A stretch of 29,500 nt of DNA from a virus. Below are positions 14,718 through 27,845 of the stretch, in pieces. The DNA is taken from IMG/VR virus record IMGVR_UViG_3300020159_000802, positions 1 through 29,500 of that record; one strand, 5' to 3'. Every line of letters starts with the position of its first letter. Within the stretch, counting starts at the first letter, position 1. The position numbers and the translations under genes were made by a program. The notes under the pieces were generated by a model. The model was not told where the DNA came from. It ran no database searches and saw only the letters and a list, made by a program, of their open reading frames with translations.

Positions 14718-14793
<76 letters not shown>

Positions 14794-14809
14794 TTTAAAA
14801 AGGAAAAAC

Positions 14810-15259: not shown

Positions 15260-15390
15260 AACCCGATCACGTTTGTGTAGTTTGTGGCCACGTTCACGAT
15301 GAAGAAACTGAAGGCAAGTGGGAAGAACTATCTGAAGATTTTACTTGTCCAGAATGTGGTGTTGGTAAAGAAGAATATGAGGTTCTATGA
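15256..15390 (+). CDS. Rubredoxin-like protein
   Basis: A 44-residue protein beginning MKPDHVCVVCGHVH and ending DFTCPECGVGKEEYEVL. The CxxCG and CPxCG pairs are those that hold the single iron of rubredoxin, and the spacing between them is normal for a short rubredoxin. It would pass electrons to the rubrerythrin encoded just upstream, with which it overlaps by 4 bases. The next gene also starts within its stop codon (ATGA), so the three are translated together. Confidence 0.88.
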   Translation: MKPDHVCVVCGHVHDEETEGKWEELSEDFTCPECGVGKEEYEVL

Positions 15391-15800: not shown

Positions 15801-16285
15801 AACAGAAATTTCGTGATGCTTATATGAAAACGGCTGAGGTGTTTGCACAACTATCCTCGGCTCGTAGACTTCATGTTGGTGCGATTGTCGTAAAAGATGA
15901 TCGCATCATTTCTATTGGTTACAATGGTATGCCATCTGGTTGGGATAATAATTGTGAAGATAAAGAATACATGAACCAAGGCGCAGGCGGTTGGTTGAGC
16001 GTTGAAGAAATTGAAGAACGTTGGCCATTTCTTGACGGCAGCAGATATGCTTTAAAAACTAAACCTGAGGTTCTCCATGCGGAAACAAACGCTATCGCCA
16101 AATTGGCAAAATCGACTGAATCTGGGGACGGTGCTTCTATCTTTATTACTCATGCCCCTTGTCTTGATTGCGCCAAGCTTATTTACCAAAGCGGCATTAA
16201 TTCTGTGTATTATCGCAATTCTTATCGCTCTGAGGACGGTGTGCATTTCTTAGAAAAAGCAGGCGTCAAAGTGGAAAAGGTCTAG
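15797..16285 (+). CDS. cd: dCMP deaminase
   Basis: A 162-residue zinc deaminase. The catalytic HAE is at 94-96 (LHAETNAI) and the zinc cysteines are in PCLDC at 121-125. The N-terminal SSARRLHVGAIVV and GYNGMPSG are typical of phage dCMP deaminases. It makes dUMP, the substrate for thymidylate synthesis, and helps set the A+T-rich nucleotide pool. The start overlaps the SGNH gene stop (ATGA). Confidence 0.93.
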   Translation: MKQKFRDAYMKTAEVFAQLSSARRLHVGAIVVKDDRIISIGYNGMPSGWDNNCEDKEYMNQGAGGWLSVEEIEERWPFLDGSRYALKTKPEVLHAETNAIAKLAKSTESGDGASIFITHAPCLDCAKLIYQSGINSVYYRNSYRSEDGVHFLEKAGVKVEKV

Positions 16286-16333
16286 TTGATAAATATATGT
16301 GTATAATAGTGTCTTTAAAATGGGAGAATTCTT

Positions 16334-16846
16334 ATGCAGGTACGTATACTTAACTGTCCAGATAAAGATTTCAAGCCATTTGTTGAGCGCGCTGCACTTT
16401 TTTATTCAAAAGAACTGATACCAAACACTAGAATTAGAAACAACTGTCTAACCGAAATACATTTCGATAGTAAGTTGGATGACTATGGTTTCGCAAGTGT
16501 TGAAGACTACAACAGCAGAAAACAACCCAGACATTTTATTATTGAAATCAACCCACTTATTGGTTCCAGAAGAATATTGGAGACATTAGCACACGAAATG
16601 GTACATATAAAACAGTACATTTTCGGTGAAACGAACGATACATTGACTAAGTGGCGCAATAAAAAGATAGATCCAGACAAAATAGATTATTGGATTCAGC
16701 CATGGGAAATAGATGCTTATGGGCGTGAAGCTGGTCTAATAACAAAATTTGCAATATCGGAACAACTCTGGGATATATTTGACGACTTTGTTAATCCTGC
16801 GGCACCCATAGTAGAAAAACCAATATCTTGGAAAAAAATTGATTAA
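16334..16846 (+). CDS. SprT-like zinc metalloprotease
   Basis: A 170-residue protein with the zinc motif HEMVH at 87-91 in ILETLAHEMVHIKQY, and a later WEIDAYGREA helix that can hold the third ligand, as in SprT-like domains. A zinc ribbon is not seen. SprT-like proteases (SPRTN in eukaryotes) cut DNA-protein crosslinks; related proteins occur in T4-like phages. GGGAG at 16321-16325 fixes the start. A TATAAT at 16302 lies upstream without a good -35. Confidence 0.75.
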   Translation: MQVRILNCPDKDFKPFVERAALFYSKELIPNTRIRNNCLTEIHFDSKLDDYGFASVEDYNSRKQPRHFIIEINPLIGSRRILETLAHEMVHIKQYIFGETNDTLTKWRNKKIDPDKIDYWIQPWEIDAYGREAGLITKFAISEQLWDIFDDFVNPAAPIVEKPISWKKID

Positions 16847-16849
16847 GTT

Positions 16850-17362
16850 ATGAGCCATGTGAATTGGGAACACGGAACATATGGTGCAGATAAAATTGAA
16901 ATATTTCAATGGGGCGAAGGCGCAAAATGTTACATTGGAAAATATTGTTCGGTAGCTGATCGTGTAAAACTATTCCTTGGTGGTGATCACCATGTAAATT
17001 GGGTTTCCACTTTTCCACACAGACAACAGAACGGAACAAAAGGTGATATACGAATTGGAAATGATGTTTGGTTAAGTCACGGTGTTACAATCATGTCTGG
17101 TGTTACGATTGGTGATGGTGCAATTATTGCGGCCAATTCTCATGTAGTTAAGAATGTAGAACCTTATACGATTGTCGGTGGAAATCCTGCAAAATATATT
17201 AAACATAGATTTAGTGGTGAAGTTATTGATTTGTTATTGAAGTTGGAATGGTGGAATTTACCATTAAATGATGTAAATGACATGCACGATTTTTTATGTG
17301 CAGAACCAGATATAAATAAATTAAAAGAATTAGTTGAAAAATTTAAAAAAAGTCCTATATAA
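16850..17362 (+). CDS. Hexapeptide-repeat acyltransferase (CatB/Vat-like)
   Basis: A 170-residue left-handed beta-helix protein. Hexapeptide repeats run from about 60 to 115 (IGNDVW, SHGVTIMSG, VTIGDGAIIAA, NSHVVKNVEP), followed by the family-typical YTIVGGNPAKYIKHRF. The catalytic His is probably in GGDHHVNWVS near 45-54. The family includes xenobiotic (chloramphenicol, streptogramin) and sugar O-acetyltransferases; the sequence does not separate these. In a phage, acetylation of a host surface sugar is more likely than drug resistance. It starts 3 bases after the SprT-like gene. Confidence 0.85.
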   Translation: MSHVNWEHGTYGADKIEIFQWGEGAKCYIGKYCSVADRVKLFLGGDHHVNWVSTFPHRQQNGTKGDIRIGNDVWLSHGVTIMSGVTIGDGAIIAANSHVVKNVEPYTIVGGNPAKYIKHRFSGEVIDLLLKLEWWNLPLNDVNDMHDFLCAEPDINKLKELVEKFKKSPI

Positions 17363-17382
17363 TATAAACAATAGAAAATAAA

Positions 17383-17490
17383 ATGACACTCATATCCATT
17401 AAACCCTTTAGATTGCAGCCAGAGTATCGCACAAGTAATTGCGTCGATGCGTCATGGCCGACCGGGTTTTGTGGTAAAAAGGATTCGTAA
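17383..17490 (+). CDS. Possible 35-residue protein or part of a small RNA
   Basis: An open frame starting MTLISIKPFRLQPEYR and ending ASWPTGFCGKKDS, with two Cys and one Trp. It has no Shine-Dalgarno sequence. Base composition at 17415-17480 is richer in G and C than around it, and GCGTCGATGCGTC is locally self-complementary, so the stretch could instead be a structured RNA ending at the terminator at 17523. Confidence 0.35.
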   Translation: MTLISIKPFRLQPEYRTSNCVDASWPTGFCGKKDS

Positions 17491-17522
17491 GAACTAAGTT
17501 CTAAAAAGACTCTAAACACAAG

Positions 17523-17552
17523 ACCCTTAGACTAAAACTCTAAGGGTTTTTT
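17523..17552 (+). terminator. Strong intrinsic terminator
   Basis: ACCCTTAGA, a 7-base loop, TCTAAGGGT, then a run of six T. It ends the 14.5-17.5 kb gene block and separates it from the tRNA array. Confidence 0.95.
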
Positions 17553-17582
17553 GTTTGGTGTTGCGATAAAACAACACTGCTG

Positions 17583-17611
17583 TTGACAGGTCATTGAATC
17601 TGTCATACAAT
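17583..17611 (+). promoter_or_regulatory. Promoter 1 of the tRNA array
   Basis: TTGACA at 17583-17588, 17 bases, TACAAT at 17606-17611. The expected start site is about 17618, where the boxA-like element begins. Confidence 0.85.
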
Positions 17612-17617
17612 ACACTT

Positions 17618-17630
17618 TGTTCTTTAAAAA
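17618..17630 (+). promoter_or_regulatory. boxA-like antitermination element 1
   Basis: TGTTCTTTAAAAA at the very start of the transcript. It matches the core of the rRNA-operon boxA (E. coli TGCTCTTTAACA) that binds NusB-NusE, and is closer still to betaproteobacterial versions as I remember them. A second copy follows promoter 2. Confidence 0.6.
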
Positions 17631-17650
17631 TTTATAGAGTTATTATTTGT

Positions 17651-17728
17651 AGCTCATTCGCCAAGTTGGTCTAAGGCATCGGATTTTGATTCCGACATTC
17701 CGAGGTTCGAATCCTTGATGGGCTGCCA
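17651..17728 (+). tRNA. tRNA-Gln (TTG)
   Basis: Acceptor AGCTCAT/ATGGGCT with one G-T pair, anticodon loop TTTTGAT within TCGGA/TCCGA, G73, encoded CCA. It is the first tRNA of the array, 20 bases after boxA 1. Confidence 0.92.
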
Positions 17729-17810
17729 TATAAAAACACATTGATATCCACGGTTAGCCCGGTACCGTCGAGTGATGAAGCAGGACGACTTTGAGTGTGT
17801 TTCTATATGG
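17726..17810 (+). ncRNA. Structured inter-tRNA element A
   Basis: The left arm at 17726-17740 starts with the CCA of tRNA-Gln and pairs with 17796-17810 (14 of 15 positions). The 55-base interior holds ACGGT/ACCGT and GTCG/CGAC helices. It ends two bases before the Shine-Dalgarno sequence of the gene at 17825, so it may be a processed small RNA or a control element for that gene. Confidence 0.5.
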
Positions 17811-17824
17811 TAAAGGAGATAACA

Positions 17825-18283
17825 ATGAAAAAAATTATATTGTCTTTGTTATTATCTGCACCTCTTTTTGCTCATGCATGTAAAGGTTATGTGATAGGTT
17901 TTAAAGGTTTGAATGAATCGTTTAATTCTGTATCATTTCAGAAATACACAAATCATTTAGGTTATTGTGGTAAATCTTTTTCTTGGTATCAGAACAAAGA
18001 AGCATTACAATACATACAGACACTAAAGAAACCATATCGTCTTTACGGCTTTAGTAAAGGTGCAGAAACTGTTTCATATGTGTTAAAGAGAACAAAAACA
18101 AAACCTGAATATGTTGTAACGATTGGTGCTTACAAAACAGCAAATGTTAATTTTGATGAGCATGGAATACGATACAATAATTTTTTTGACCACTCTGGTG
18201 TAGGTCAAAAAAGTCCAGGAGTATTTTTCGATGTGTCTCATGCAGAGATAGAAAAAGAAGTAGTTAATTTTTTAATAGAATAA
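17825..18283 (+). CDS. Secreted small hydrolase-like protein
   Basis: A 152-residue protein with a clear Sec signal peptide: MKKIILSLLLSAPLFAHA then Cys. The Cys after AHA also resembles a lipobox, so a lipoprotein is possible. The mature part contains YRLYGFSKGAETVSYVL, whose G-F-S-K-G has the nucleophile elbow pattern GxSxG of alpha/beta hydrolases, and a later HSGVG and DVSHAEIE that could supply the His. It is short for that family. AAAGGAG at 17812-17818 fixes the ATG at 17825. It is set among tRNA genes and preceded by structured element A. Confidence 0.65.
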   Translation: MKKIILSLLLSAPLFAHACKGYVIGFKGLNESFNSVSFQKYTNHLGYCGKSFSWYQNKEALQYIQTLKKPYRLYGFSKGAETVSYVLKRTKTKPEYVVTIGAYKTANVNFDEHGIRYNNFFDHSGVGQKSPGVFFDVSHAEIEKEVVNFLIE

Positions 18284-18284
18284 T

Positions 18285-18374
18285 GGAAGCGTGGCAGAGT
18301 CCGGTTTATTGCAGCAGTCTTGAAAACTGCCGATCCGAAAGGGTCCGTGAGTTCGAATCTCACTGCTTCCACCA
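18285..18374 (+). tRNA. tRNA-Ser (TGA)
   Basis: Acceptor GGAAGCG/TGCTTCC, anticodon loop CTTGAAA between CAGT and ACTG, long variable arm (CCGATCCGAAAGGGTCC region), T arm GTGAG/CTCAC, encoded CCA. It starts one base after the preceding stop codon. Confidence 0.93.
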
Positions 18375-18377
18375 ATT

Positions 18378-18451
18378 CAGGGTATATGATAGTGGTAGTC
18401 GCCGAGGTTTGGAACCTTGTAGTGCAAGTTCGATTCTTGCTACCCTGACCA
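18378..18451 (+). tRNA. tRNA-Pro (TGG), divergent copy
   Basis: Acceptor CAGGGTA/TACCCTG, anticodon loop TTTGGAA between GAGG and CCTT, T loop TTCGATT, A73, encoded CCA. A second tRNA-Pro (TGG) at 19929 is much closer to the bacterial gene. Confidence 0.85.
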
Positions 18452-18461
18452 CAAAGATTTT

Positions 18462-18552
18462 GGAGAACGGGCAGGATGGTAATGCAGCGGATTGCTAATC
18501 CGTAGATCGTCTAAACAACGGTCATAGGGTTCGACTCCCTAGTTCTCCACCA
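18462..18552 (+). tRNA. tRNA-Ser (GCT)
   Basis: Acceptor GGAGAAC/GTTCTCC, anticodon loop TTGCTAA, long variable arm, T arm AGGG/CCCT with TTCGACT, encoded CCA. Confidence 0.92.
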
Positions 18553-18557
18553 AATTC

Positions 18558-18649
18558 ACCCCTGTAGTTTAATGGTAAAACGGCGGATTTATATCCCGTA
18601 AGCAACAGATAATTGGTTCATCAGGGTTCGACTCCCTGCGGGGGTACCA
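18558..18649 (+). tRNA. tRNA of uncertain identity (TAT, Ile-like) with a long variable region
   Basis: Acceptor ACCCCTG/CGGGGGT, D arm GTTT/AAAC as in the Gly tRNA at 22433, anticodon loop TTTATAT with an A-C mismatch at its base, T arm CAGGG/CCCTG, encoded CCA. The variable region is about 22 bases, as in class II tRNAs, although TAT would be Ile (class I). Confidence 0.7.
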
Positions 18650-18656
18650 AATTTAT

Positions 18657-18732
18657 GTGGGTGTGACCCGAAAGGCTAGGGAACGGATTGCAAATCCGTT
18701 TTATGCAGGTTCGATTCCTGTCACCCACTCCA
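18657..18732 (+). tRNA. tRNA-Cys (GCA)
   Basis: Acceptor GTGGGTG/CACCCAC, anticodon loop TTGCAAA in ACGGA/TCCGT, and T73, the discriminator used by Cys tRNA. Encoded CCA. Confidence 0.93.
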
Positions 18733-18760
18733 AGTTGTGTTGTATTTGTACAACAACTGG

Positions 18761-18788
18761 TTGACAAAGTTGCCAGTTCGTATATAAT
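18761..18788 (+). promoter_or_regulatory. Promoter 2 of the tRNA array
   Basis: TTGACA at 18761-18766, 16 bases, TATAAT at 18783-18788. A hairpin (GTTG..TTGTA/TACAA..CAAC) at 18735-18758 precedes it. Confidence 0.87.
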
Positions 18789-18795
18789 ACACACT

Positions 18796-18808
18796 TGTTC
18801 TTTAAAAA
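18796..18808 (+). promoter_or_regulatory. boxA-like antitermination element 2
   Basis: TGTTCTTTAAAAA at the expected transcript start, identical to element 1 and at the same distance from its -10 box (7 bases). The first tRNA follows 6 bases later. Confidence 0.6.
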
Positions 18809-18814
18809 TATATT

Positions 18815-18897
18815 GCGAGTGTGGTGAAATAGGTAGACACAAGAGACTTAAAATCTCTCGCTTCGGCGTGCCGGTTCGATTCCGGCCACTCGCACCA
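18815..18897 (+). tRNA. tRNA-Leu (TAA)
   Basis: Acceptor GCGAGTG/CACTCGC, anticodon loop CTTAAAA in AGAGA/TCTCT, class II variable arm (CGCTTCGGCG), T arm CCGG/CCGG, encoded CCA. Confidence 0.94.
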
Positions 18898-18899
18898 AT

Positions 18900-18974
18900 G
18901 CACCGTTCGTCTATCGGTTAGGACACTGCCCTTTCACGGCGGTAAGAGGAGTTCGATTCTCCTACGGTGTACCA
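18900..18974 (+). tRNA. tRNA-Glu (TTC)
   Basis: Acceptor GCACCGT/ACGGTGT with a G1-T72 wobble, anticodon loop CTTTCAC in CTGCC/GGCGG, encoded CCA. Its last five bases belong to the left arm of structured element B. Confidence 0.92.
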
Positions 18975-19124
18975 TTTGTTTAGTGTTATCAAGGTATCGT
19001 TATAGGACGCTATGACTACTCGACAGTACGGGTGCGACCAACACTGTCTGATATAACTGCTAGTCGCTTGTCAGTGTTAGCTACATTGTTGACAAATAGG
19101 CACGATAACACTAAACAAATGGTA
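18970..19124 (+). ncRNA. Structured inter-tRNA element B, closed by a perfect 21-bp stem
   Basis: Bases 18970-18990 and 19104-19124 are exact reverse complements over 21 positions. The left arm includes the TACCA end of tRNA-Glu. The 113-base interior has its own helices, for example AACACTG (19040-19046) with CAGTGTT (19072-19078) and GACTA (19013-19017) with TAGTC (19061-19065). No open frame of note is present. T4 also makes two stable non-tRNA RNAs of this size range from its tRNA cluster, so a small stable RNA is likely. Confidence 0.7.
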
Positions 19125-19138
19125 GTATAAATGTTTAT

Positions 19139-19212
19139 GGGGTTGAAGCTTTAAGGTGAAGCAACTGGCTTTTAACCAGTAGAAAAGGGATCGTTACCCT
19201 TCAGCCCTACCA
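19139..19212 (+). tRNA. tRNA-Lys (TTT)
   Basis: Acceptor GGGGTTG/CAGCCCT with a G1-T72 wobble, anticodon loop CTTTTAA in ACTGG/CCAGT, encoded CCA. The T loop is ATCGTTA instead of the usual TTCRANN. Confidence 0.9.
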
Positions 19213-19220
19213 AAAAATTT

Positions 19221-19313
19221 GGGTGTCTTGATGCTATGGCGTGTGCATCCCCAGACTGTAAATCTGGTCCCTCCGGGTAAACAATCGCGGTTCGACTCCG
19301 TGGACACCCACCA
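19221..19313 (+). tRNA. tRNA-Tyr (GTA)
   Basis: Acceptor GGGTGTC/GACACCC, anticodon loop CTGTAAA in CAGA/TCTG, long variable arm, T loop TTCGACT, encoded CCA. Confidence 0.93.
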
Positions 19314-19331
19314 AATTAAAAGGAGATTACT

Positions 19332-19535
19332 ATGTTAATTTCAGAAATATCAAGTTTAATCAGCTGGGCTGGTGATACGAGAAACACAGTAGTTAGAGAA
19401 ACTATCAAATATGATAGAGGTAATGATGTAACAGTTGTAAGAGTTCAAAGTGAAAAATTTGAACAAACATATGATGAAAAAGGAAAAGAAACTTCCTTAA
19501 ATGATAAAGGAACGAATGTAGACATTCGTGCATAA
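19332..19535 (+). CDS. Small acidic protein of unknown function
   Basis: A 67-residue protein, MLISEISSLISWAGDTR at its start and a charged strand-rich remainder with KFEQTYDEKGKE. No family is recognised. AAAGGAG stands at 19318-19324, 7 bases before the ATG, which supports it. It lies between tRNA-Tyr and tRNA-Asp and is likely read from promoter 2. Confidence 0.65.
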   Translation: MLISEISSLISWAGDTRNTVVRETIKYDRGNDVTVVRVQSEKFEQTYDEKGKETSLNDKGTNVDIRA

Positions 19536-19540
19536 GATTA

Positions 19541-19615
19541 GGTCTCAAAGTGTTCATGGACGCACGTTGGCTTGTCACGCCAAAAGAAGGGGATCGTTAC
19601 CCCTTGGGACCGCCA
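19541..19615 (+). tRNA. tRNA-Asp (GTC)
   Basis: Acceptor GGTCTCA/TGGGACC, anticodon loop TTGTCAC in TTGGC/GCCAA, G73 as usual for Asp, encoded CCA. T loop ATCGTTA, as in the Lys and Met tRNAs of this array. Confidence 0.92.
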
Positions 19616-19846
19616 GAACGTGCCATCTAATCAATGGCTAGTCTGACCCGGACGATGAGAAGTGGTTTGATAACCACGGGTGGTAGTCTTTAAACCGAAA
19701 GGCCGCTGGCAATGCGAGAACGGTCCCTGTCGGGGAGCGGGTGGAAGGTGCGTGAGATTTGCGGGGCAACCCAAGAGATGATGCACTACAATTACCGCCG
19801 AGGGATGCAGAGCATTTTTAGTGTGATATATAATACAGAATTCAAT
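19616..19846 (+). ncRNA. Structured inter-tRNA region C, about 230 bases
   Basis: No gene is visible here, but base composition is richer in G and C than the coding DNA and short helices are dense: GCCAT/ATGGC at 19623-19639, GTGGTT/AACCAC near 19663-19678, CC-GAAA-GG near 19697-19704, TCCC-TGTC-GGGGA near 19733-19745, and GGG-GCAA-CCC near 19762-19771. GGTGGTA (near 19680) can pair with TACCGCC (near 19795), which would close a large domain. ATGC-AGA-GCAT plus five T at about 19806-19820 could end the RNA. It is not recognised as a known RNA family. Confidence 0.55.
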
Positions 19847-19921
19847 TCCACAGTAGCACAGCGGTAGTGCAGTTGACTGTTAATCAATTGGTCGGAGGTT
19901 CGATCCCTTCCTGTGGAGCCA
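19847..19921 (+). tRNA. tRNA-Asn (GTT)
   Basis: Acceptor TCCACAG/CTGTGGA, anticodon loop CTGTTAA in TTGA/TCAA, G73, encoded CCA. A TATAAT at 19829 lies upstream but lacks a good -35. Confidence 0.92.
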
Positions 19922-19928
19922 ATTTATT

Positions 19929-20005
19929 CCGAGTATAGCGCAGTCTGGTAGCGCACCTGGTTTGGGACCAGGGGGTCGGGAGTTCGAACCTCTCTACTCG
20001 GACCA
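19929..20005 (+). tRNA. tRNA-Pro (TGG), bacterial-like copy
   Basis: Acceptor CCGAGTA/TACTCGG, anticodon loop TTTGGGA in CCTGG/CCAGG, encoded CCA. D arm, anticodon arm and variable region are nearly those of bacterial tRNA-Pro (TGG), so it looks recently taken from a host. Confidence 0.94.
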
Positions 20006-20058
20006 ATACTCGCCTTGACTTATGGCGTATAATAGGAAAAGTAGTAAGTCATTCTTTT

Positions 20059-20133
20059 GGGCTGCTAGTGATAATGGGAGCACGCCGCCTTTGCACGGCG
20101 GAGGTAAGAGTTCGATTCTCTTGCGGTCCACCA
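20059..20133 (+). tRNA. tRNA-Ala (TGC)
   Basis: Acceptor GGGCTGC/GCGGTCC with wobble pairs, anticodon loop TTTGCAC in CCGCC/GGCGG, encoded CCA. The G3-T70 wobble pair expected for Ala recognition is present (G-T at the third acceptor position). Confidence 0.9.
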
Positions 20134-20139
20134 ATTAAT

Positions 20140-20214
20140 GGTACTATGACGTAGACGGATGCGTACCGGTTTCATAAGCCGAGGAGATTGGATCGTTACC
20201 AATTAGTACCACCA
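20140..20214 (+). tRNA. tRNA-Met (CAT), elongator type
   Basis: Acceptor GGTACTA/TAGTACC fully paired, anticodon loop TTCATAA, T arm ATTGG/CCAAT with loop ATCGTTA, encoded CCA. The paired acceptor end rules out an initiator. Confidence 0.85.
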
Positions 20215-20220
20215 AAATGT

Positions 20221-20297
20221 CCGTCCTTAGCTCAATGGATCAGAGCATTTGGCTACGAACCAAAAGGTTGGGGATTCGAATTCCTCAGGACGGTCCA
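20221..20297 (+). tRNA. tRNA-Arg (ACG)
   Basis: Acceptor CCGTCCT/AGGACGG, anticodon loop CTACGAA in TTTGG/CCAAA, T loop TTCGAAT, T73, encoded CCA. Confidence 0.92.
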
Positions 20298-20302
20298 ATT
20301 TT

Positions 20303-20377
20303 ACCCTTGTAGCTCAGAGGAAGAGCACCGTCTTGATAAGGCGTAGGTCGACATTTCGAAATTGTCCAAGGGTACCA
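20303..20377 (+). tRNA. tRNA-Ile (GAT)
   Basis: Acceptor ACCCTTG/CAAGGGT, anticodon loop TTGATAA, encoded CCA. One T-T mismatch closes the T loop (GACAT/TTGTC), so it may be slightly weakened. Confidence 0.87.
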
Positions 20378-20379
20378 AT

Positions 20380-20454
20380 ATCTCGCTGGTGTTAACGGCA
20401 GCATGACGGTCTCCAAAACCGTGGGACGGGGTTCGAATCCCTGGCGGGATGCCA
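20380..20454 (+). tRNA. tRNA-Trp (CCA)
   Basis: Acceptor ATCTCGC/GCGGGAT, anticodon loop CTCCAAA in ACGGT/ACCGT, G73 as usual for Trp, encoded CCA. Confidence 0.94.
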
Positions 20455-20475
20455 ATAAAAAGAAAGGTGATTGAT

Positions 20476-20964
20476 ATGAAAAATTTCAACTTAGAAGAAG
20501 TAAAACACTTTATCGTAAACCAAGGACCAGATACACGTGTTTATTTGGGTGCAGACTCGGAACGTGTTCGTGCCGATGGTGTATGGTACGCTGATTACGC
20601 TCTTGCGGTTGTAGTTCATATCGATGGACGCCATGGTTGTAAAATCTTTGGTTATGTTCAACGAGAACTGGATTACGATTACAAGAAAAGTAAACCAGCA
20701 ATGCGTCTAATGACCGAAGTATACAAAGTTTCAGAACTGTTCCAAAGTCTAGCGGATGTGTTGGAAGACCGTCACGTAGAAGTTCACTTAGACCTTAACA
20801 AGTCTGATGAATTTGGTAGTTCTTGTGTTGTTCAACAAGCAATTGGTTACGTCAAAGGTACATGTAATGTGACACCTATGGTGAAGCCAGATGCACCTGC
20901 GGCTTCTTTCTGTGCAGACCGGTTAAAACGGATTCTAACAGAACAAGAAGCATCAAAGGTTTAA
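20476..20964 (+). CDS. YkuK-like (DUF458) RNase H-fold protein
   Basis: A 162-residue protein that resembles the YkuK/DUF458 family. An RNase H-like first strand carries an acidic residue (RVYLGADSERV near 20-30), a second acidic strand reads VEVHLDLNKSDEF near 108-120, and the end has the family-type KPDAPAASFCADRL near 140-153. These three blocks would bring Asp residues together as in RNase H-fold nucleases; activity is not proven for the family. AAAGGTGA at 20464-20471 supports ATG 20476 rather than the in-frame ATG at 20449 inside tRNA-Trp. It lies between tRNA-Trp and tRNA-His. Confidence 0.7.
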   Translation: MKNFNLEEVKHFIVNQGPDTRVYLGADSERVRADGVWYADYALAVVVHIDGRHGCKIFGYVQRELDYDYKKSKPAMRLMTEVYKVSELFQSLADVLEDRHVEVHLDLNKSDEFGSSCVVQQAIGYVKGTCNVTPMVKPDAPAASFCADRLKRILTEQEASKV

Positions 20965-20995
20965 AACCCCAAAGCAATTAAGTTTGCTTTGGGTT
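20965..20995 (+). other. Hairpin running into the 5' end of tRNA-His
   Basis: AACCC(C)AAAGC pairs with GCTTTGGGTT. There is no T run, and the 3' arm includes the G-1 of tRNA-His, so it is a leader hairpin or processing signal rather than a terminator. Confidence 0.5.
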
Positions 20996-21068
20996 GTCCT
21001 TAGTGTAGTGGCCTGCACCCCATGTTGTGACCTTGGTAGTATGAGTTCGATCCTCATAGGACAACCCA
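20993..21068 (+). tRNA. tRNA-His (GTG)
   Basis: Acceptor TTGTCCT/AGGACAA plus the extra G-1 (20993) opposite C73, the identity mark of His tRNA. Anticodon loop TTGTGAC, encoded CCA. Confidence 0.93.
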
Positions 21069-21081
21069 AAGTAAATTTTGT

Positions 21082-21156
21082 GCCTGGTTAGCTCAGGGGT
21101 AGAGCGTCTCCCTTACAAGGAGAGGGTCCGCGGTTCGAAACCGTGACCAGGTACCA
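21082..21156 (+). tRNA. tRNA-Val (TAC)
   Basis: Acceptor GCCTGGT/ACCAGGT with a G1-T72 wobble, anticodon loop CTTACAA in TCTCC/GGAGA, encoded CCA. Confidence 0.93.
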
Positions 21157-21157
21157 T

Positions 21158-21233
21158 GCTGCTTTAGCTGATGTGGTCATAGCGGCGGTCTGAAGAGCCG
21201 TTGAAGTTGGTTCGATTCCAACAGGCAGCACCA
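21158..21233 (+). tRNA. tRNA-Phe (GAA)
   Basis: Acceptor GCTGCTT/AGGCAGC, anticodon loop CTGAAGA in GCGGT/GCCGT, A73, encoded CCA. It starts one base after tRNA-Val. Confidence 0.92.
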
Positions 21234-21237
21234 TTTT

Positions 21238-21311
21238 GCTCCCATAGTATAATGGCATTACACGGCTTTGGTAAAGCCGAAACACAAGTTCAATTCTTGT
21301 TGGGAGCACCA
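21238..21311 (+). tRNA. tRNA-Thr (GGT)
   Basis: Acceptor GCTCCCA/TGGGAGC, anticodon loop TTGGTAA in CGGCT/AGCCG, T loop TTCAATT, encoded CCA. Confidence 0.93.
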
Positions 21312-21428
21312 ATCTCAGGAATAACTAAAGGTTTAAATTCCACTTTTGTTGGTTGACTTATAACAGGATGTGGTGTAAAATATCTACTTGTAGTAAAGTA
21401 AATGCAATGGTGAACATTGGCTGAGATT
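21311..21428 (+). ncRNA. Inter-tRNA element E with an internal promoter
   Basis: AATCTCAG at 21311-21318, which begins with the last A of tRNA-Thr, is the exact reverse complement of CTGAGATT at 21421-21428, and TTTT follows. A hairpin AATG/CATT lies just inside the right arm. A long stem plus a T run would end transcription coming from upstream, while the promoter inside restarts it. Confidence 0.45.
21353..21381 (+). promoter_or_regulatory. Promoter 3 of the tRNA array
   Basis: TTGACT at 21353-21358, 17 bases, TAAAAT at 21376-21381. No boxA-like sequence follows, unlike promoters 1 and 2. Confidence 0.65.
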
Positions 21429-21457
21429 TTTATAGGTTGATTCATAAAGATATATAT

Positions 21458-21534
21458 GCCCCGGTGACGGAATTGGTATACGTGTTGGTCTTAGAAACCA
21501 AATTTTAGGAGTTCGACTCTCCTCTGGGGCACCA
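21458..21534 (+). tRNA. tRNA-Leu (TAG) without the long variable arm
   Basis: Acceptor GCCCCGG/CTGGGGC, D arm of Leu type (GACGGAATTGGTATACGT), anticodon loop CTTAGAA in TTGGT/ACCAA, T arm AGGAG/CTCCT, encoded CCA. Only about 5 bases lie between anticodon and T arms, where bacterial Leu tRNAs carry a long arm. Confidence 0.88.
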
Positions 21535-21539
21535 AATTT

Positions 21540-21614
21540 CTGGCCATAGTATAATGGATAATACAGTTGCCTTCTAAGCAATCAATCCAGGTTCGATTCC
21601 TGGTGGCCGGACCA
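21540..21614 (+). tRNA. tRNA-Arg (TCT)
   Basis: Acceptor CTGGCCA/TGGCCGG, anticodon loop CTTCTAA in GTTGC/GCAAT, T loop TTCGATT, encoded CCA. It reads AGA, a codon common in this AT-rich genome. Confidence 0.92.
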
Positions 21615-21630
21615 AATTAAGGAGTTACAA

Positions 21631-22215
21631 ATGCCAGCAGTATTTTTAGTTAGTGACACACACTTTGGTCACGCTGGTGTGTGTAGGTTTATGCGTAATG
21701 ATGGTGTGACTAAGCTTCGCCCATGGGATAATCCAGAAGAGATGGATGAGGAAATGGTGAAGCGTTGGAACGAAACTGTTCGACCAAACGATAAAGTCTA
21801 TCACCTAGGTGATGTTGTAATCAATAAAAAATCTTTGAACACCATGCATCGTCTGAATGGTGATAAAGTTCTGATCAGAGGTAATCACGACATTTTTAAA
21901 TTAGAGGACTACACCCGACACTTCAGAGATGTTCGTGGTTATCATGTGATGAACGGAATGATTCTGTCTCACATTCCAGTACATGAGGAAAGTCTTGGTC
22001 GTTTTGGTGTCAACATTCATGGTCACTTACATGCGAACCGTGTTAAGATGAAAGATCCTTTTGGTTACAGAGAACCAATAGTTGACTCACGTTACCACTG
22101 CGTCTGCGTCGAACAAACAGACTTCAGACCCATCTTGTTTGAAGATGTTATTAAGAAAATTAAAGAAGAGGGTGGTGAGGTTGGTTTCCGTAATGGAAAT
22201 GGTCCTACGATGTAA
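21631..22215 (+). CDS. Calcineurin-like metallophosphoesterase
   Basis: A 194-residue protein with the phosphoesterase motifs in order: SDTHFGH at 8-14, GD in VYHLGDVV near 57-64, RGNHD near 83-87, SHIP near 114, and GHLH near 130-133. It lacks the extra domains of gp47. Similar short phosphoesterases are widespread in phages; some act on cyclic nucleotides, phosphoproteins or ligated RNA ends, but no specific substrate is implied here. AAGGAG at 21619-21624 precedes the ATG. It lies between two tRNA groups. Confidence 0.85.
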   Translation: MPAVFLVSDTHFGHAGVCRFMRNDGVTKLRPWDNPEEMDEEMVKRWNETVRPNDKVYHLGDVVINKKSLNTMHRLNGDKVLIRGNHDIFKLEDYTRHFRDVRGYHVMNGMILSHIPVHEESLGRFGVNIHGHLHANRVKMKDPFGYREPIVDSRYHCVCVEQTDFRPILFEDVIKKIKEEGGEVGFRNGNGPTM

Positions 22216-22221
22216 AAAGGC

Positions 22222-22250
22222 TTGACAGAATAAAAATCAGCCTATATAAT
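22222..22250 (+). promoter_or_regulatory. Promoter 4 of the tRNA array
   Basis: TTGACA at 22222-22227, 17 bases, TATAAT at 22245-22250. It precedes the Gly-Thr-Gly tRNA group by 18 bases. Confidence 0.88.
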
Positions 22251-22268
22251 AACTCTATAAAGAAAGAA

Positions 22269-22343
22269 GCGGGTATGGTGCTAGTGGTAACACAAGACCT
22301 TGCCAAGGTTTAGTTGTGAGTTCGATTCTCACTACCCGCTCCA
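22269..22343 (+). tRNA. tRNA-Gly (GCC)
   Basis: Acceptor GCGGGTA/TACCCGC, anticodon loop TTGCCAA in AGACC/GGTTT, T73, encoded CCA. Confidence 0.93.
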
Positions 22344-22350
22344 AGATTTT

Positions 22351-22424
22351 GCCCTATTAGTATAATGGTATTACACCGGTTTTGTAATCCGGGTACGGGA
22401 GTTCGATTCTCTCATGGGGCACCA
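22351..22424 (+). tRNA. tRNA-Thr (TGT)
   Basis: Acceptor GCCCTAT/ATGGGGC, anticodon loop TTTGTAA (one T-T mismatch at its base), T loop TTCGATT, encoded CCA. Confidence 0.9.
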
Positions 22425-22432
22425 AGTTAGTT

Positions 22433-22506
22433 GCGGGATTAGTTTAATGGTAAAACAGCAGATTTCCAATCTTCGGTTAAGAGTTCGATTCTCTTATCCC
22501 GCTCCA
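22433..22506 (+). tRNA. tRNA-Gly (TCC)
   Basis: Acceptor GCGGGAT/ATCCCGC, anticodon loop TTTCCAA, T73, encoded CCA. Confidence 0.92.
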
Positions 22507-22593: not shown

Positions 22594-22839
22594 ATGAATA
22601 TTATTCCATTGAAAAATAAAGTTGTAATTGAACGTGTTGAACAGACAAAAACAACAACATCAGGAATCATTCTTCAACGTACAGAAGAACCAGATCGAGC
22701 TAAAATTCTGGCAATCGGTCCAGAAGTTGAAGATGTTTCGGTTGGTGATGTTGTTCTGCTAGATTGGAACGCAGCAATGAAGATTGAAGATAAATATGTT
22801 GCACCAGTAACAAGCATTGTGTTTATCTACGGAGAGTAA
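22594..22839 (+). CDS. groES: GroES-like co-chaperonin
   Basis: An 81-residue cpn10-type protein: IIPLKNKVVIERVEQ at the start, SGIILQ as the GroEL-binding mobile-loop tip near 23-28, AKILAIGPEVEDVSVGDVVLLD as the second barrel sheet, and a short VTSIVFIYGE ending. It is shorter than bacterial GroES (97) because the roof region is reduced. T4 supplies its own co-chaperonin gp31 to fold its capsid protein with host GroEL; this gene would do the same. GAGG precedes the ATG. Confidence 0.9.
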   Translation: MNIIPLKNKVVIERVEQTKTTTSGIILQRTEEPDRAKILAIGPEVEDVSVGDVVLLDWNAAMKIEDKYVAPVTSIVFIYGE

Positions 22840-23029: not shown

Positions 23030-23102
23030 GGCGGGTTGGTGAAACAGAATCACAGTGGGCTCATAATCCTCAGTTCCGGTGCAACTCCGTGACCCGCAAC
23101 CA
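23030..23102 (+). tRNA. tRNA-fMet-like (CAT), initiator type
   Basis: GGCGGGT faces ACCCGCA, so bases 2-7 pair and position 1-72 is a G-A mismatch; lack of a 1-72 pair is the hallmark of bacterial initiators. The anticodon stem holds GGG before CTCATAA, another initiator mark, and the 3' end ..CCCGCAACCA is as in bacterial tRNA-fMet. The T arm and D arm are irregular (loop TGCAACT; no GG in the D loop). It is 73 bases long with encoded CCA. Confidence 0.75.
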
Positions 23103-23810
23103 TTACATCTGAGAAATGAATTCTGCTTCAGGAATTCTAGTCTTAGTGTTCTTACTTCCAAGAACAACAACAATTCTTCTCCCAACATCGGTGTCTAACA
23201 TCATTACGATGCAACCACCAGACGCTCTGATATAACCGGTTTTACTAATAATAAAATCGTGTCTCTTACCAATAATTGGATTCGTATTATTAAACACCAT
23301 CCAATTTTTGCGTATCTTAATTTTCACTTCTGACATTTTGCTGTACTGAACCAATTCCGGATAATCTTTGGCTATCAGTATGATATCGATAAGTTCTTCT
23401 GCGTTACTAACATTTCCCGCATCAAGACCCGTTGGATCCGTAAATCTGGTATATAACAAACCCTGGAAATGAACTTTCTTGTTCATTGCAGCAACACACG
23501 CAGACAAACCACCAGGATATTTCTCACATAGTAGTCTGGCCGCATTGTTGTCGGATTTAACAATAGAAAGTTTCAACAATTCTCTTCTGGTAAATTGGTT
23601 TATTTTTTCATCCAAATTTTGTTTGGCATCCAAAACAACCATTGCAGAAATAAGTTTCGTTATACTTGCAATAGAACGAATCTCTTTGGTATTTTCACCC
23701 TGAATAATTTTACCTTTTCCATCGGTGACCAACCAACTTTGAGCAGTAAGTTCTAAAGCATATGAGTTGTTGACAATTAAAAATAACGACAATAAAATAA
23801 TTTTAATCAT
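23103..23810 (-). CDS. DD-peptidase of the penicillin-binding protein type (PBP7/DacA-like)
   Basis: A 235-residue protein with a Sec signal peptide (MIKIILLSLFLIVNNSYA) and the three active-site motifs of the S11 peptidase family: S49-I-T-K52, S86-D-N88 and K190-T-G192. This is the fold of D-alanyl-D-alanine carboxy- and endopeptidases; the small size without a C-terminal anchor is like PBP7. It would cut peptide crosslinks in periplasmic peptidoglycan, which fits a role in lysis or wall remodelling. It is the last gene of the minus-strand operon, and its stop codon abuts the initiator-like tRNA that runs the opposite way. The gap to the gene upstream is 39 bases, with a weak Shine-Dalgarno sequence. 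Confidence 0.88.
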   Translation of the reverse strand: MIKIILLSLFLIVNNSYALELTAQSWLVTDGKGKIIQGENTKEIRSIASITKLISAMVVLDAKQNLDEKINQFTRRELLKLSIVKSDNNAARLLCEKYPGGLSACVAAMNKKVHFQGLLYTRFTDPTGLDAGNVSNAEELIDIILIAKDYPELVQYSKMSEVKIKIRKNWMVFNNTNPIIGKRHDFIISKTGYIRASGGCIVMMLDTDVGRRIVVVLGSKNTKTRIPEAEFISQM

Positions 23811-23849
23811 ATCAATTTTTCAAAATAATAATTGTATATAGTTGACAGT

Positions 23850-24350
23850 TTATCCGCCACATCCTTTTGGTAGAGAATTGCAGTGACTCATTATCTCAAA
23901 GAATGCCCATCCCAAACCAGCCAATATTATAATTATAAGTATAACACCAATTATAATTTGTATGGCTTCTTCCAATTCCTGTTTTTTTCGTTTCTTATCC
24001 TCTTTATCTTTTCTTGCTTGGTGCGCTTCTTCAATATCAAGTGCATGAGCCCTTGCTTTTATTTTATTCCAAACATCAATTTTACCAGACTGCATAAACA
24101 ACAATTGTAGTTCTTTCTCAAATTGTTTAGTTTGTTCTAATGCCATTTCTATTTCTATAGCGACCGCCATATTGGATTTATTGCCGTTACTTTTGGCTTG
24201 ATGAGCTGCTTTTGTTGCTTTATTTTTCGCATCAAAATATTTTCCCAAAACGGGACCCAATGATGACACATCATCCACTGTCTTGGATACCTTTTTAATG
24301 AGTGCAACCGCACTCTGTATTCCCGCTAATGCTGTTATTGGGTCAATCAT
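23850..24350 (-). CDS. C-tail-anchored membrane protein of unknown function
   Basis: A 166-residue protein. The first 130 residues are helical and charged, with an N-terminal MIDPITALAGIQSAVALIKKV that may be amphipathic, and a strongly charged stretch HQARKDKEDKKRKKQELEE. A single long hydrophobic segment follows (IIIGVILIIIILAGLGWAFF, about 133-152), then a short tail with two Cys. The layout suggests a cytoplasmic domain anchored by its C-terminal end. No signal peptide. The ATG overlaps the stop of the 51-residue gene upstream (ATGA), so the two are coupled. Confidence 0.75.
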   Translation of the reverse strand: MIDPITALAGIQSAVALIKKVSKTVDDVSSLGPVLGKYFDAKNKATKAAHQAKSNGNKSNMAVAIEIEMALEQTKQFEKELQLLFMQSGKIDVWNKIKARAHALDIEEAHQARKDKEDKKRKKQELEEAIQIIIGVILIIIILAGLGWAFFEIMSHCNSLPKGCGG

Positions 24351-24502
24351 TTCTTATCTTTCTTTTTTTCTTCTTCATTTTTCTTCCAAACTAAACAAAC
24401 AACCTTTCTATCATAAACATCACCCGTCCATGTCCATCTTACACACTCATACTGTGGTTTCAGATAAGCCAATTTATAAGATAAAATAATTTCAAAAATC
24501 AT
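24347..24502 (-). CDS. Small 51-residue protein in the envelope operon
   Basis: An open frame from ATG at 24502-24500 to TGA at 24349-24347. It starts MIFEIILSYKLAYLKPQYE, has a WTWTGDVYDRKVVC strand segment, and ends in a run of Lys and Glu. Both ends overlap neighbouring genes as ATGA, which is strong support that it is translated even though it is short. No family is recognised. Confidence 0.7.
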   Translation of the reverse strand: MIFEIILSYKLAYLKPQYECVRWTWTGDVYDRKVVCLVWKKNEEEKKKDKK

Positions 24503-25152
24503 TTATTAGCTAAAGGATTGTCTATAGCTTTCTGTATTTTCTGGTCAACTTCTTTTTTAAGAGCGTCCACATCTCTTTTAACTTCTTTTTTCATAGTGTC
24601 AACTTCTTTGGCAATTTCTCTCTTGGTGGCATCTACTTCTCTAGAAATCTCACGGCGAGCATCTGCCACTTCTTTACGTATCGAAGCAACTTCGCCTCTT
24701 GCTTTTTCCAAATCTTCACGAATATCTTTTCGTGCTTGGCGCATTTCTGTTTCGGTTTCTCGTTGTGCCTGTTTTACACTACGCTCAATCTGTTCTGTTA
24801 CAGATTCATTTCTACGAATATCATTTTTCAAATCATTTTTAATATCTCTTGTATAGTCTGAAGTTTTGGCACTATTTTCCTCAATAACGGCTAATCGTTT
24901 ATCAAACTCAGACAAATCTGGTGCAATATATTCTGCTATCTTTTTCTTCATACCTTGGTAGTCTTTGTAAACCTCAAACGCACCATAAAGACCGCCAAGG
25001 GCTGATGACACCAAAGTAAAAGCGACCATTAGTTTGGCCGGCGTGAATTCATAACCACCAATACTAATAACGGTATCTTTACTCGCATACTTCTTAACTG
25101 CTGCTTCTGCTTCGTCTATTTTTTTGTTTACGTTTTTAATTTCTTCTGTCAT
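24499..25152 (-). CDS. Membrane-anchored coiled-coil protein
   Basis: A 217-residue protein. A hydrophobic segment lies at about 38-56 (AKLMVAFTLVSSALGGLYGAF). From about 65 to 205 it is one long highly charged coiled coil with near-regular heptads and repeated units of the type (E/D)-V-(D/A)-x-x-(K/R)-(K/R)-E-(V/I). The N-terminal 35 residues are charged and probably cytoplasmic, so the coiled coil would extend on the other side of the membrane, possibly across the periplasm; orientation is an inference. It ends in an ATGA overlap with the 51-residue gene and starts one base after the stop of the preceding gene. Confidence 0.8.
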   Translation of the reverse strand: MTEEIKNVNKKIDEAEAAVKKYASKDTVISIGGYEFTPAKLMVAFTLVSSALGGLYGAFEVYKDYQGMKKKIAEYIAPDLSEFDKRLAVIEENSAKTSDYTRDIKNDLKNDIRRNESVTEQIERSVKQAQRETETEMRQARKDIREDLEKARGEVASIRKEVADARREISREVDATKREIAKEVDTMKKEVKRDVDALKKEVDQKIQKAIDNPLANK

Positions 25153-25153
25153 T

Positions 25154-26812
25154 TTAGTCCCTGTATTGTTGGTTGACCATTTCTTGATGTAACCTATCTG
25201 AAGATAGTTGTCTCAATGCTCTAACATTATCTACAGTTCTTTGCCCCTTATAAATTTCATCCGGTTTATAAAATGCAACATCACGTAATATCGAATTTAT
25301 ATAAGATTCAAAACCTGCCGGAATCACAGCAATTGAGTTTATGTCTCTGCCGCCGGCCGCTTCGTTTGCTTGAACATCACTCTTTACCGTTTCCGTTTTT
25401 TGCTCATTGATTGTGGTATCGATATTCGGTCTTTGTTCCATAATTGACTTTATAGGACTTTCACTTCCCATAAAACTTACTTGTGTGGGAAGTTCGATTT
25501 CGTTTTCTCTTTGTCGAAAAACATTGTTGGGTGAAACACTGTTTATATTTGGTTGTGGAGGTAACAATGAATAATCCATCTTTGCAACTTGAATTTGCTG
25601 AGTCTGTGTAATTACTTGTTCGGGTGTTCTTGGTGCTTGTTGAAATTGTAAATTGACAACGCTATGGGATTGAGATTCAACTGTCGCCTGTTGTTGAACG
25701 GCATTGTTTCTCTGGTTGTTTTCAATTATCATATTTGTTTGTTCCTGTGCATTTGAGATTGCATTCGAAACTTCTTGTAACGCATTTTGTACAGCAGCAG
25801 CCTGAACAGCTCTGTCGTTTGATTGAACTTGTCTAACGGCACTCATAACCAATGACATGTTGGGTGATGATTTTGTTCTTTCTTCCTGTTTCTCAGCTTG
25901 CGTTTGTGTCTGTGATTCTTTTACAGATTGTGGTATATTGTCTGGAGCACTAATTGTTCCTGAAGTGGAGACTTCAACACCACCAGCATCAACTGTTATT
26001 GTCGTTGGTTGAACGTCTGATGTTGTTGGTAAACTGGTGTTAGTCGGAGTCGCAACCGAAACTGAACCTAAAGTAGTTGTGGTTATTGCAGGTGTCAAAC
26101 TATTAATAGCACTCAAATAACCAGGACAACTTGGCGAACTCAATACGTTCACTGAACATGGGTCAACAGTGTACTTCAAAGAAAAAGAAATATTGTATAT
26201 TTCAGGACCGTAAGGACCTGCCCAACCGTTATTGTCCTTACCTATAAACCCATATTGAACTTGCCCTATCGAACTAGCATTCAGAGGTGATGTGAAATTC
26301 TCCGAGAAATTAAAATTAGTCCAATTGAATTTATAATTAAGATTGTAAGAGTTACCATACAATAAATTATTTGTGCCTCTGCCACCTGTAGTGTCCCAAA
26401 AACGAACAAGTGCAGTTAGTTGGTCGGTTCGACCATCGTCCCAACCGTTTCCGTTTTTCGCATTGAATCCAAAATTATAACCAGTAACTTGTAGACCAGA
26501 TGTTGAGGGCAATAAGTTTGAAATATTTTGTTGTTGGTAAACATAAGTTGAACCGTAGGAAAAGTTTATAACATTACCTGGTCGAACGATTGCATTGGGA
26601 CCACAATAACCTGGGTCACCCCCTGACCAACAAGTCAAGTTGTCTTGATAAACACCACCAACCCAAGATGATGGACCACCTTGAATTGTTGGCACTACAA
26701 TGTTATTGGTATTGTATATTTGTCCTGGTATCAGTTCTTGTGCATTACTTGATAAGCTTGTGAACAAGAATGCCGAGTAAACTGCCAATACCAATTTTTG
26801 TATAATTGTCAT
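25154..26812 (-). CDS. Large exported protein with a beta-rich N-terminal domain
   Basis: A 552-residue protein with a Sec signal peptide (MTIIQKLVLAVYSAFLFTSLSSNAQ). Residues 27-225 are Gly/Asn/aromatic-rich and beta-like (TGYNFGFNAKNGNGWDDG, NLNYKFNWTNFNF), with four Cys that could form disulphides. Residues 230-330 are Thr/Ser/Pro-rich like a linker. Residues 330-420 are Gln/Asn-rich and helical. The last 100 residues (VIPAGFESYINSILRD, FYKPDEIYKGQRTVDNVRALRQL) look like a compact conserved end. No enzyme motif is seen. It may be a periplasmic or surface scaffold. The start lies 68 bases inside the upstream gene. Confidence 0.8.
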   Translation of the reverse strand: MTIIQKLVLAVYSAFLFTSLSSNAQELIPGQIYNTNNIVVPTIQGGPSSWVGGVYQDNLTCWSGGDPGYCGPNAIVRPGNVINFSYGSTYVYQQQNISNLLPSTSGLQVTGYNFGFNAKNGNGWDDGRTDQLTALVRFWDTTGGRGTNNLLYGNSYNLNYKFNWTNFNFSENFTSPLNASSIGQVQYGFIGKDNNGWAGPYGPEIYNISFSLKYTVDPCSVNVLSSPSCPGYLSAINSLTPAITTTTLGSVSVATPTNTSLPTTSDVQPTTITVDAGGVEVSTSGTISAPDNIPQSVKESQTQTQAEKQEERTKSSPNMSLVMSAVRQVQSNDRAVQAAAVQNALQEVSNAISNAQEQTNMIIENNQRNNAVQQQATVESQSHSVVNLQFQQAPRTPEQVITQTQQIQVAKMDYSLLPPQPNINSVSPNNVFRQRENEIELPTQVSFMGSESPIKSIMEQRPNIDTTINEQKTETVKSDVQANEAAGGRDINSIAVIPAGFESYINSILRDVAFYKPDEIYKGQRTVDNVRALRQLSSDRLHQEMVNQQYRD

Positions 26813-27773
26813 CTTTTTTCTCTTTTATTGGTTCAGGAATTTTCCTTGGATTTGATTCCCATGCTTCTTTAGCCGCTTGACCAATCTTACCTTCATAAGG
26901 GCAAGGTGTGCCTGCTGACATCATTGCATCCCACACTCTGCGGTCTTGACACATTGCAGCAACAGCGGCCACTTTCATACCCATATCAAAAAGAGTCTTG
27001 GATAACTTTAACCTTTCACAATTTTCATCACGAATTGTACCACCAGAACTCACACCAAATATTTGTGTTTGAACCGCACTACTTGAACCAGTAGTACACA
27101 AATCATTATTACCTCCACTCATCATCATAGGTGCAACAGCGGTTGGTGGTGGCTGAATTATTCTTTGTGTAATTTCAGATGTATTGATATTTCGATTCGT
27201 CATATCACCAGTCTGCACATTATTATTCACATTGTTATTTGTGGACGTTGATGCAGAAGTCGATGCGCTGGTGTTTATATTTCTGTTTGTCATGTCACCA
27301 GTGTTGACATTGTTGTTGGTGTTTGTACTAGTTGCGGTACTGGAGTTTATGTTTCGATTTGTCATGTCACCAGTGTTGACATTGTTATTTGTACTTGTAG
27401 AAGTATTCGTATTTGTATTGACGTTGTTGTTATTATACGTCATTGTGCCAGAATTTATATTGTTATTTGTATTTACATTCGTAGATGTGCTGGCACTAGA
27501 GTTGACGTTATTGTTGTTGTACGTCATTGTGCCGGTGTTCACATTGTTATTTGTGTTTACACTGGTGCTTGTATTGACATTCGTAGAGACACTATTGACG
27601 TTGGTGTTATTGGTGTTTACAGTCGTGGCTGTGCTTGTGTTATTTGTGTTTACTGTGCTTGTAGAGGTAGATGTACTGTTCGTGTCTACCAATGTTGTCG
27701 AATCATATGTTGTCTGTGCGACAGATGCTAAAGACATGACAAAAAGCACCAATCCGGTAAGCTTTTTGAACAT
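26745..27773 (-). CDS. Exported Asn/Thr-rich repeat protein
   Basis: A 342-residue protein with a signal peptide (MFKKLTGLVLFVMSLASVAQ). About 170 residues of Asn, Thr, Ser and Val follow, containing repeated units such as NNNVNTGDMTNRNIN (three times) and GTMTYNNNNVN (twice), which suggests a long extended or beta-stacked region. The C-terminal third is ordinary sequence: DENCERLKLSKTLFDMGMK, AAMCQDRRVWDAMM and PCPYEGKIG, with several Cys, ending in a hydrophobic IGIGSLLGILVHKL helix. It may be a surface-exposed or envelope-spanning protein. AAAGGT lies before the start and a T4-type late promoter stands about 65 bases upstream. Confidence 0.8.
   Translation of the reverse strand: MFKKLTGLVLFVMSLASVAQTTYDSTTLVDTNSTSTSTSTVNTNNTSTATTVNTNNTNVNSVSTNVNTSTSVNTNNNVNTGTMTYNNNNVNSSASTSTNVNTNNNINSGTMTYNNNNVNTNTNTSTSTNNNVNTGDMTNRNINSSTATSTNTNNNVNTGDMTNRNINTSASTSASTSTNNNVNNNVQTGDMTNRNINTSEITQRIIQPPPTAVAPMMMSGGNNDLCTTGSSSAVQTQIFGVSSGGTIRDENCERLKLSKTLFDMGMKVAAVAAMCQDRRVWDAMMSAGTPCPYEGKIGQAAKEAWESNPRKIPEPIKEKKDDNYTKIGIGSLLGILVHKLIK
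27183..27700 (-). repeat. Degenerate tandem repeats inside the Asn/Thr-rich gene
   Basis: The units near 27183-27220, 27272-27310 and 27350-27390 share most of their sequence (each includes a near-identical GTCACCAGTGTTGACATTG-like stretch), and two further related units lie near 27435-27470 and 27515-27560. They are in frame and expand the protein repeat. Confidence 0.75.
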
Positions 27774-27837: not shown

Positions 27838-27845
27838 TATTTATA
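27838..27845 (-). promoter_or_regulatory. T4-type late promoter of the minus-strand operon
   Basis: TATTTATA on the plus strand, that is TATAAATA read leftwards. It stands about 65 bases before the ATG of the first minus-strand gene, a normal distance for a late promoter with a short leader. Confidence 0.75.

Follow-up and report, generated by a model that had tools for sequence, protein, structure and literature searches.

What would a T4-like phage do with six tightly packed genes for exported and membrane proteins? The question is raised by a minus-strand operon at positions 27773-23103 of a viral DNA stretch of 29,500 nt (IMG/VR record IMGVR_UViG_3300020159_000802), here called the window. 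It is part of a T4-like myovirus genome and has homologues of the T4-type helicase, SbcC/SbcD (gp46/47), a gp55-type late sigma factor, the clamp loader, and RegA; its SbcC shares ~52% identity with the SbcC of Methylophilales phage Melnitz. The operon comprises six open reading frames (A to F) with tight or overlapping junctions. An earlier note, made from the sequence, had proposed a six-gene operon with several overlaps, and all six reading frames lie where it placed them.

The plus strand next to the operon has features of its own. It carries 27 tRNA genes (14718-22506) that cover nearly all amino acids and are unusually many for a 29.5-kb fragment. A phage GroES-like co-chaperonin gene (22594-22839, plus strand; PF00166, 1.5e-9) adjoins the operon and also adjoins A-B-C in a 156-kb near relative, G001 (locus L002). 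Just beyond the 3′ end of gene F lies a degenerate tRNA-like sequence with CAT in the anticodon loop (23030-23099, plus strand), which scores 28.0 bits, below the gathering score of 29, and is not called by ARAGORN.

A promoter had been claimed ahead of the operon, and a T4-type late promoter octamer, TATAAATA, is indeed located at 27838-27845 on the minus strand, 72 nt upstream of the ATG of gene A. The octamer occurs five times in the window versus 1.85 times expected; of 100 shuffles, four attain this count. Between -200 and +60 relative to the start of A, 9 of 57 non-identical loci carry the octamer, versus a background of 0.7%. The gene for the gp55-type late sigma factor is present at 2855-3394 of the window.

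Gene A (26745-27773, minus strand) encodes a protein of 342 aa with a signal peptide, repeats, a four-cysteine domain, and a short hydrophobic C-tail. The four cysteines (C226, C252, C275, and C291) are invariant and lie in the conserved domain. The Asn/Thr/Ser-rich stretch is highly variable in length, being almost absent in locus L106 and several hundred residues long in L063. AF2 models these repeats as stacked strands at a pLDDT of only ~60, which is only a suggestion of such an arrangement. The protein matches phrog_20531 (function unknown, 1.5e-12), and a sequence search of its domain against PDB chains gave no match. Foldseek with A gave only a non-significant hit, to FapC (E 1.2).

Gene B (25154-26812, minus strand) overlaps A by 68 nt and encodes 552 aa that are arranged as a signal peptide, a jelly-roll N-domain (~28-240), a long helix (319-376), and a conserved C-terminal region. 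Residues 28-240 are modeled at a pLDDT of ~95, and the best Foldseek match in the PDB is the sugar-binding domain of Fbs2/Fbs1 (3.5e-6), with CBM61 (2.6e-4) and other lectin-like or MAM folds as further neighbors. The N-domain is thereby confidently predicted to be a sugar-binding-type jelly roll. Across its carriers, B measures 500-870 aa, and its N-part varies with the host lineage, in contrast to the conserved A and C. By sequence, the N-termini of A, B, and F are of the Sec type. In a simple signal-peptide test, 62/66 members of the A family and 58/62 of the B family pass, compared with 0-1 for internal-start controls. The description of A and B as a signal-peptide pair, one Asn/Thr repeat-rich and one large and beta-rich, can thus be widened, since export signals are a trait of both families.

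Gene C (24499-25152, minus strand) encodes the membrane-anchored coiled coil that the first reading had recognized: 217 aa with a single transmembrane (TM) segment at about residues 41-59 and a long coiled coil of variable length. Its C-terminal DNPLANK is near-invariant, with an invariant DNPL near the C-end. The charges flanking the TM segment disagree between phage groups and give no consistent topology for C. Scans of Pfam, PHROGs, and NCBIfam give no family above cut-off for C, and weak coiled-coil matches (apolipoprotein, MutS2, ZorA) were set aside as composition.

Gene D (24347-24502, minus strand) overlaps C by 4 nt and encodes the expected 51-residue protein, which contains two cysteines (ECVRWTW...VVCLVW). 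In the scans of Pfam, PHROGs, and NCBIfam, no curated family names any of A to D. Gene E (23850-24350, minus strand; 166 aa) overlaps D by 4 nt; its C-tail anchor is corroborated by one strong TM segment near the C-end, and it matches phrog_32327 (function unknown, 2.6e-12). C and E have one TM segment each and match no holin family in Pfam or PHROGs, and no spanin family match was obtained there for A to F, in keeping with the claim that none of the six is a classical holin or spanin.

Gene F (23103-23810, minus strand) follows E after a gap of 39 nt and encodes a serine peptidase of 235 aa. It matches Peptidase_S11 (PF00768, 5.7e-35) and the PBP7-type D-alanyl-D-alanine endopeptidase model NF008668 (5.7e-43, under the equivalog cut-off). 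The catalytic motifs SITK/SDN/KTG are intact, and relatives have the corresponding SxxK/SxN/KTG. F is therefore best described, by its matches, as a putative exported peptidase of family S11 whose nearest kin are the PBP7-type D,D-endopeptidases; the signal-peptide DD-peptidase proposed earlier stands, with its activity predicted. F shares with the PBP7-type enzymes the S11 family, the three motifs, and a signal peptide, but it is phage-encoded, shorter, below the equivalog cut-off, and accessory to the operon.

Which of these genes belong together is seen from their conservation. The conserved core is A-B-C, whereas D-E is a second, mobile block and F is sporadic. A search of IMG/VR with B yielded 80 loci, 42 of which were evaluable after 90% non-redundancy. 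All 42 of these freshwater loci have A directly upstream and C downstream of B; D and E follow A-B-C in many, with E present in 25/42 and F in 7/42. The SAR11-phage and roseophage branches were reached with A as the probe, and neighbors B and C recur there: all three genes are present in the same order in 13/13 SAR11-type and 14/14 roseophage-type evaluable non-redundant loci. The idea of all six genes as one unit fails, with A-B-C invariant, D-E separable, and F occasional. What does hold is that genes of the set occur together elsewhere, as the triad recurs in all three groups. Together with a literature search that found no description of the A-B-C or A-F set, this upholds the earlier note's central proposal of an undescribed, conserved, late envelope-directed module.

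A is one homologous family across the freshwater, SAR11, and roseophage groups (hhalign 1.5e-24), and its profile finds a match in 16/16 records searched. Profile comparison also links the C proteins (freshwater-roseo 2.2e-8, freshwater-SAR11 5.8e-5) and the C-terminal regions of freshwater and SAR11 B (9.7e-6), and it shows no demonstrable homology between roseophage B and the B of the window. A scan of 84,980 species genomes with the A domain returned 22 loci, all on environmental MAG or single-cell contigs. An origin of A as a host gene was rejected because these loci, where gene order is readable, generally have the same set and resemble phage sequence, not host operons. In eight loci (L049, L050, L053, L057, L059, L061, L069, and L070), A-B-C or B-C lies near genes for a dicarboxylate symporter, an aspartate-racemase-like protein, and an amino-acid-binding protein; these viral contigs reach 524 kb, and the genes may form a metabolic cassette of very large phages.

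The surroundings of the triad point to lysis. HTVC023P-type contigs show the order XhlA-like TM protein, amidase (PF01510, 9e-20), 3TM holin, A, B, C; in another HTVC023P-type order, A-B-C is followed by an M15 endolysin. In four freshwater loci (L010, L011, L012, and L016), Rz-like, Rz1-like, and GH19 endolysin genes precede A-B-C-D-E, and in L032, L034, and L035 the same three precede A-B-C-E, without D. The Rz1-like protein of the L010-type cluster matches PF23793 (8.8e-7). A-B-C is found directly before or close to the large terminase gene in HTVC202P, Baldr, and Autographiviridae S28-C10; in T7, the terminase region is the site of holin 17.5 and spanins 18.5/18.7. Where E occurs without A-B-C, it adjoins a 3TM holin and an endolysin in 14/19 non-redundant loci. 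By gene order, A-B-C is inseparable, and in several phage lineages it is found inside or beside the lysis cassette. Of the freshwater loci, only 15/42 have a recognized wall enzyme or spanin nearby, and of the SAR11-type loci only 6/13, as raw counts. The suggested fit to lysis is accordingly backed by the neighborhood, with holin, amidase, M15, GH19, or Rz-Rz1 genes beside A-B-C or D-E, and this backing is one of synteny, not of function. In many cassettes, a TM protein of 202 aa (L130 8475-9083, cluster c5, and relatives; phrog_31287, unknown) is encoded between E and the 3TM holin; proteins of this cluster also adjoin symporter genes.

The roseophage version of the set adds a small lipoprotein (71-88 aa) that is encoded upstream of A in 71/80 loci (L276-L355) and has the core motif of A (best hmmsearch 3.7e-6, hhalign 6.3e-7). 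In CRP-207 (L170) and CRP-810 (L171), its gene overlaps or abuts the start of A and is missing from the annotation of these isolates. Two proteins that are annotated there as (putative) lysozyme (L170 3292-3873 and L171 6204-6626) are members of the C family, with the TM segment, coiled coil, and NPL end. A lysozyme identity of the CRP-207 protein was rejected, as it matches no lysozyme family and is a C homologue.

Two other phage systems resemble parts of the set. The Mu releasin gp25 (DUF2730; PMC9239132) is, like C, a small single-TM protein near the endolysin, and the C homologue of S28-C10 is annotated as DUF2730 in GenBank. However, neither this protein nor the C of the window matches DUF2730, and C as a releasin was discarded; C is also set apart by the length of its coiled coil and by the conserved C-terminal DNPLANK, and its neighborhood showed no SAR endolysin. 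Operons for curli (type VIII secretion) are found in pelagimyophages and in Melnitz and have been proposed to be linked to lysis or aggregation (PMC7029224, PMC9599517, PMC9004378). These operons share with the set several genes for exported, repeat-rich proteins and their occurrence in aquatic phages (SAR11/OM43). Membership in this system, suggested by the Asn/Thr repeats of A, was rejected since A to F give no CsgG/CsgF or curlin-repeat match, and a comparison with the curli proteins of HTVC008M shows that phage curli operons consist of different genes.

In the explanation that we favor, and to which we give about an even chance, A-B-C encodes a complex, expressed late, that extends across the Gram-negative envelope or bridges it and has its role in lysis or exit. 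The formation of this complex, the locations of its proteins, its glycan target, and its mechanism are what we infer from the data above. A and B would be exported to the periplasm or the outer membrane, and C would be anchored in the inner membrane. The sugar-binding-type domain of B, whose N-part differs by host lineage, may bind peptidoglycan or LPS as the host glycan, with the cysteine domain of A as a universal partner that in roseophages would also be provided on the small lipoprotein. Together, A, B, and C could destabilize the outer layers, or open them, during the action of holin and endolysin. The D-E block would be an accessory to lysis, and F would be exported to the periplasm and, as a D,D-endopeptidase, loosen the wall there. 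Tentatively, and with rather little confidence, A-B-C might be a new kind of outer-envelope disruption machine in phages of SAR11, roseobacters, and freshwater hosts, in which B and A, with C coupled to them, would rupture the outer membrane or detach it as the last lysis step in some spanin-less phages.

The readings weighed here are not mutually exclusive, and one form of the favored explanation makes A-B-C a spanin equivalent, with which phages that lack Rz/Rz1 would disrupt the outer membrane, a proposal that we hold as doubtful. One survey found ~13% of phages to be without an identifiable spanin, with marine cyanophages prominent (PMC6139136). An o-spanin lipoprotein scan that recovered the control T7 18.7 gave nothing convincing in HTVC023P, HTVC115P, HTVC033P, Baldr, and S28-C10, phages whose spanin slot is taken up by A-B-C. 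Two-component spanins (lambda Rz/Rz1, T7 gp18.5/18.7) share with the set late, envelope-directed genes in overlapping frames, a TM coiled-coil partner (C), a small lipoprotein (in roseophages), and a slot by the endolysin or terminase; the roseophage lipoprotein and the TM coiled coil have the layout of an o-/i-spanin pair. Unlike such spanins, the set has two large Sec-exported proteins that lack lipoboxes and sequence matches, and the scan detects no lipobox in A to F of the window, the lipoprotein being confined to the roseophage version. The SAR11 phages HTVC011P and HTVC019P carry neither A-B-C nor o-spanins (plus strand scanned), so the correlation between spanin absence and A-B-C is not specific. 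Contrary to a substitute, the set also co-occurs with Rz/Rz1-like genes in freshwater relatives. G001 encodes Rz-like, Rz1-like (PF23793, 9.4e-8), and GH19 endolysin proteins at 154.8-156.1 kb, ~23 kb from its A-B-C near 132 kb, and because these genes are separate, A-B-C is not the only outer-membrane device of this phage. A simple replacement of spanins is weakened by both cases, as the two SAR11 phages have neither system and G001 has both.

Superinfection exclusion or surface modification is an improbable reading, in which the exported, lectin-like B, retained in the envelope by A and C, masks or modifies a receptor glycan; neither competing phages nor progeny virions would then adhere to the infected cell or to debris from it. 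The sugar-binding-type jelly roll, its divergence by host lineage next to conserved A and C, the surface-like look of the long repeats of A, and the 27/42 freshwater loci that have no recognized wall enzyme or spanin adjacent are consistent with it. Yet superinfection exclusion usually needs earlier expression, the late promoter and the frequent position in lysis cassettes suit an end-of-cycle role better, and no known exclusion family was matched in Pfam, PHROGs, or NCBIfam. A role in lysis timing (lysis inhibition or antiholin-like sensing) is unlikely; here periplasmic A and B would sense the state of the envelope or a superinfecting phage, with C relaying the signal to the holin. The membrane coiled coil with periplasmic domains has the layout of a sensor, holins are in the neighborhood, and the genome is T4-like, but Pfam and PHROGs give no RI/RIII-like match, and three proteins with a B of 500-870 aa are large for an antiholin. 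The set is also present in small podophages, for which we know of no lysis inhibition. It is very improbable that A and B are structural components of the virion, encoded beside terminase and lysis genes. Several homologues do lie close to terminase or structural genes; signal peptides across both families, the lack of a structural PHROG match for A or B, and the frequent position of A-B-C in T4-like relatives beside the DNA polymerase gene gp43, away from structural genes, argue against it.

On the favored explanation of a late complex that acts at lysis or exit, the families phrog_20531 and phrog_32327, previously without a stage of action, acquire a likely one. The conserved exported triad recurs in the lysis region of abundant phages of SAR11, roseobacters, and freshwater hosts and offers a testable candidate for how phages without an identifiable spanin may cross the outer membrane.
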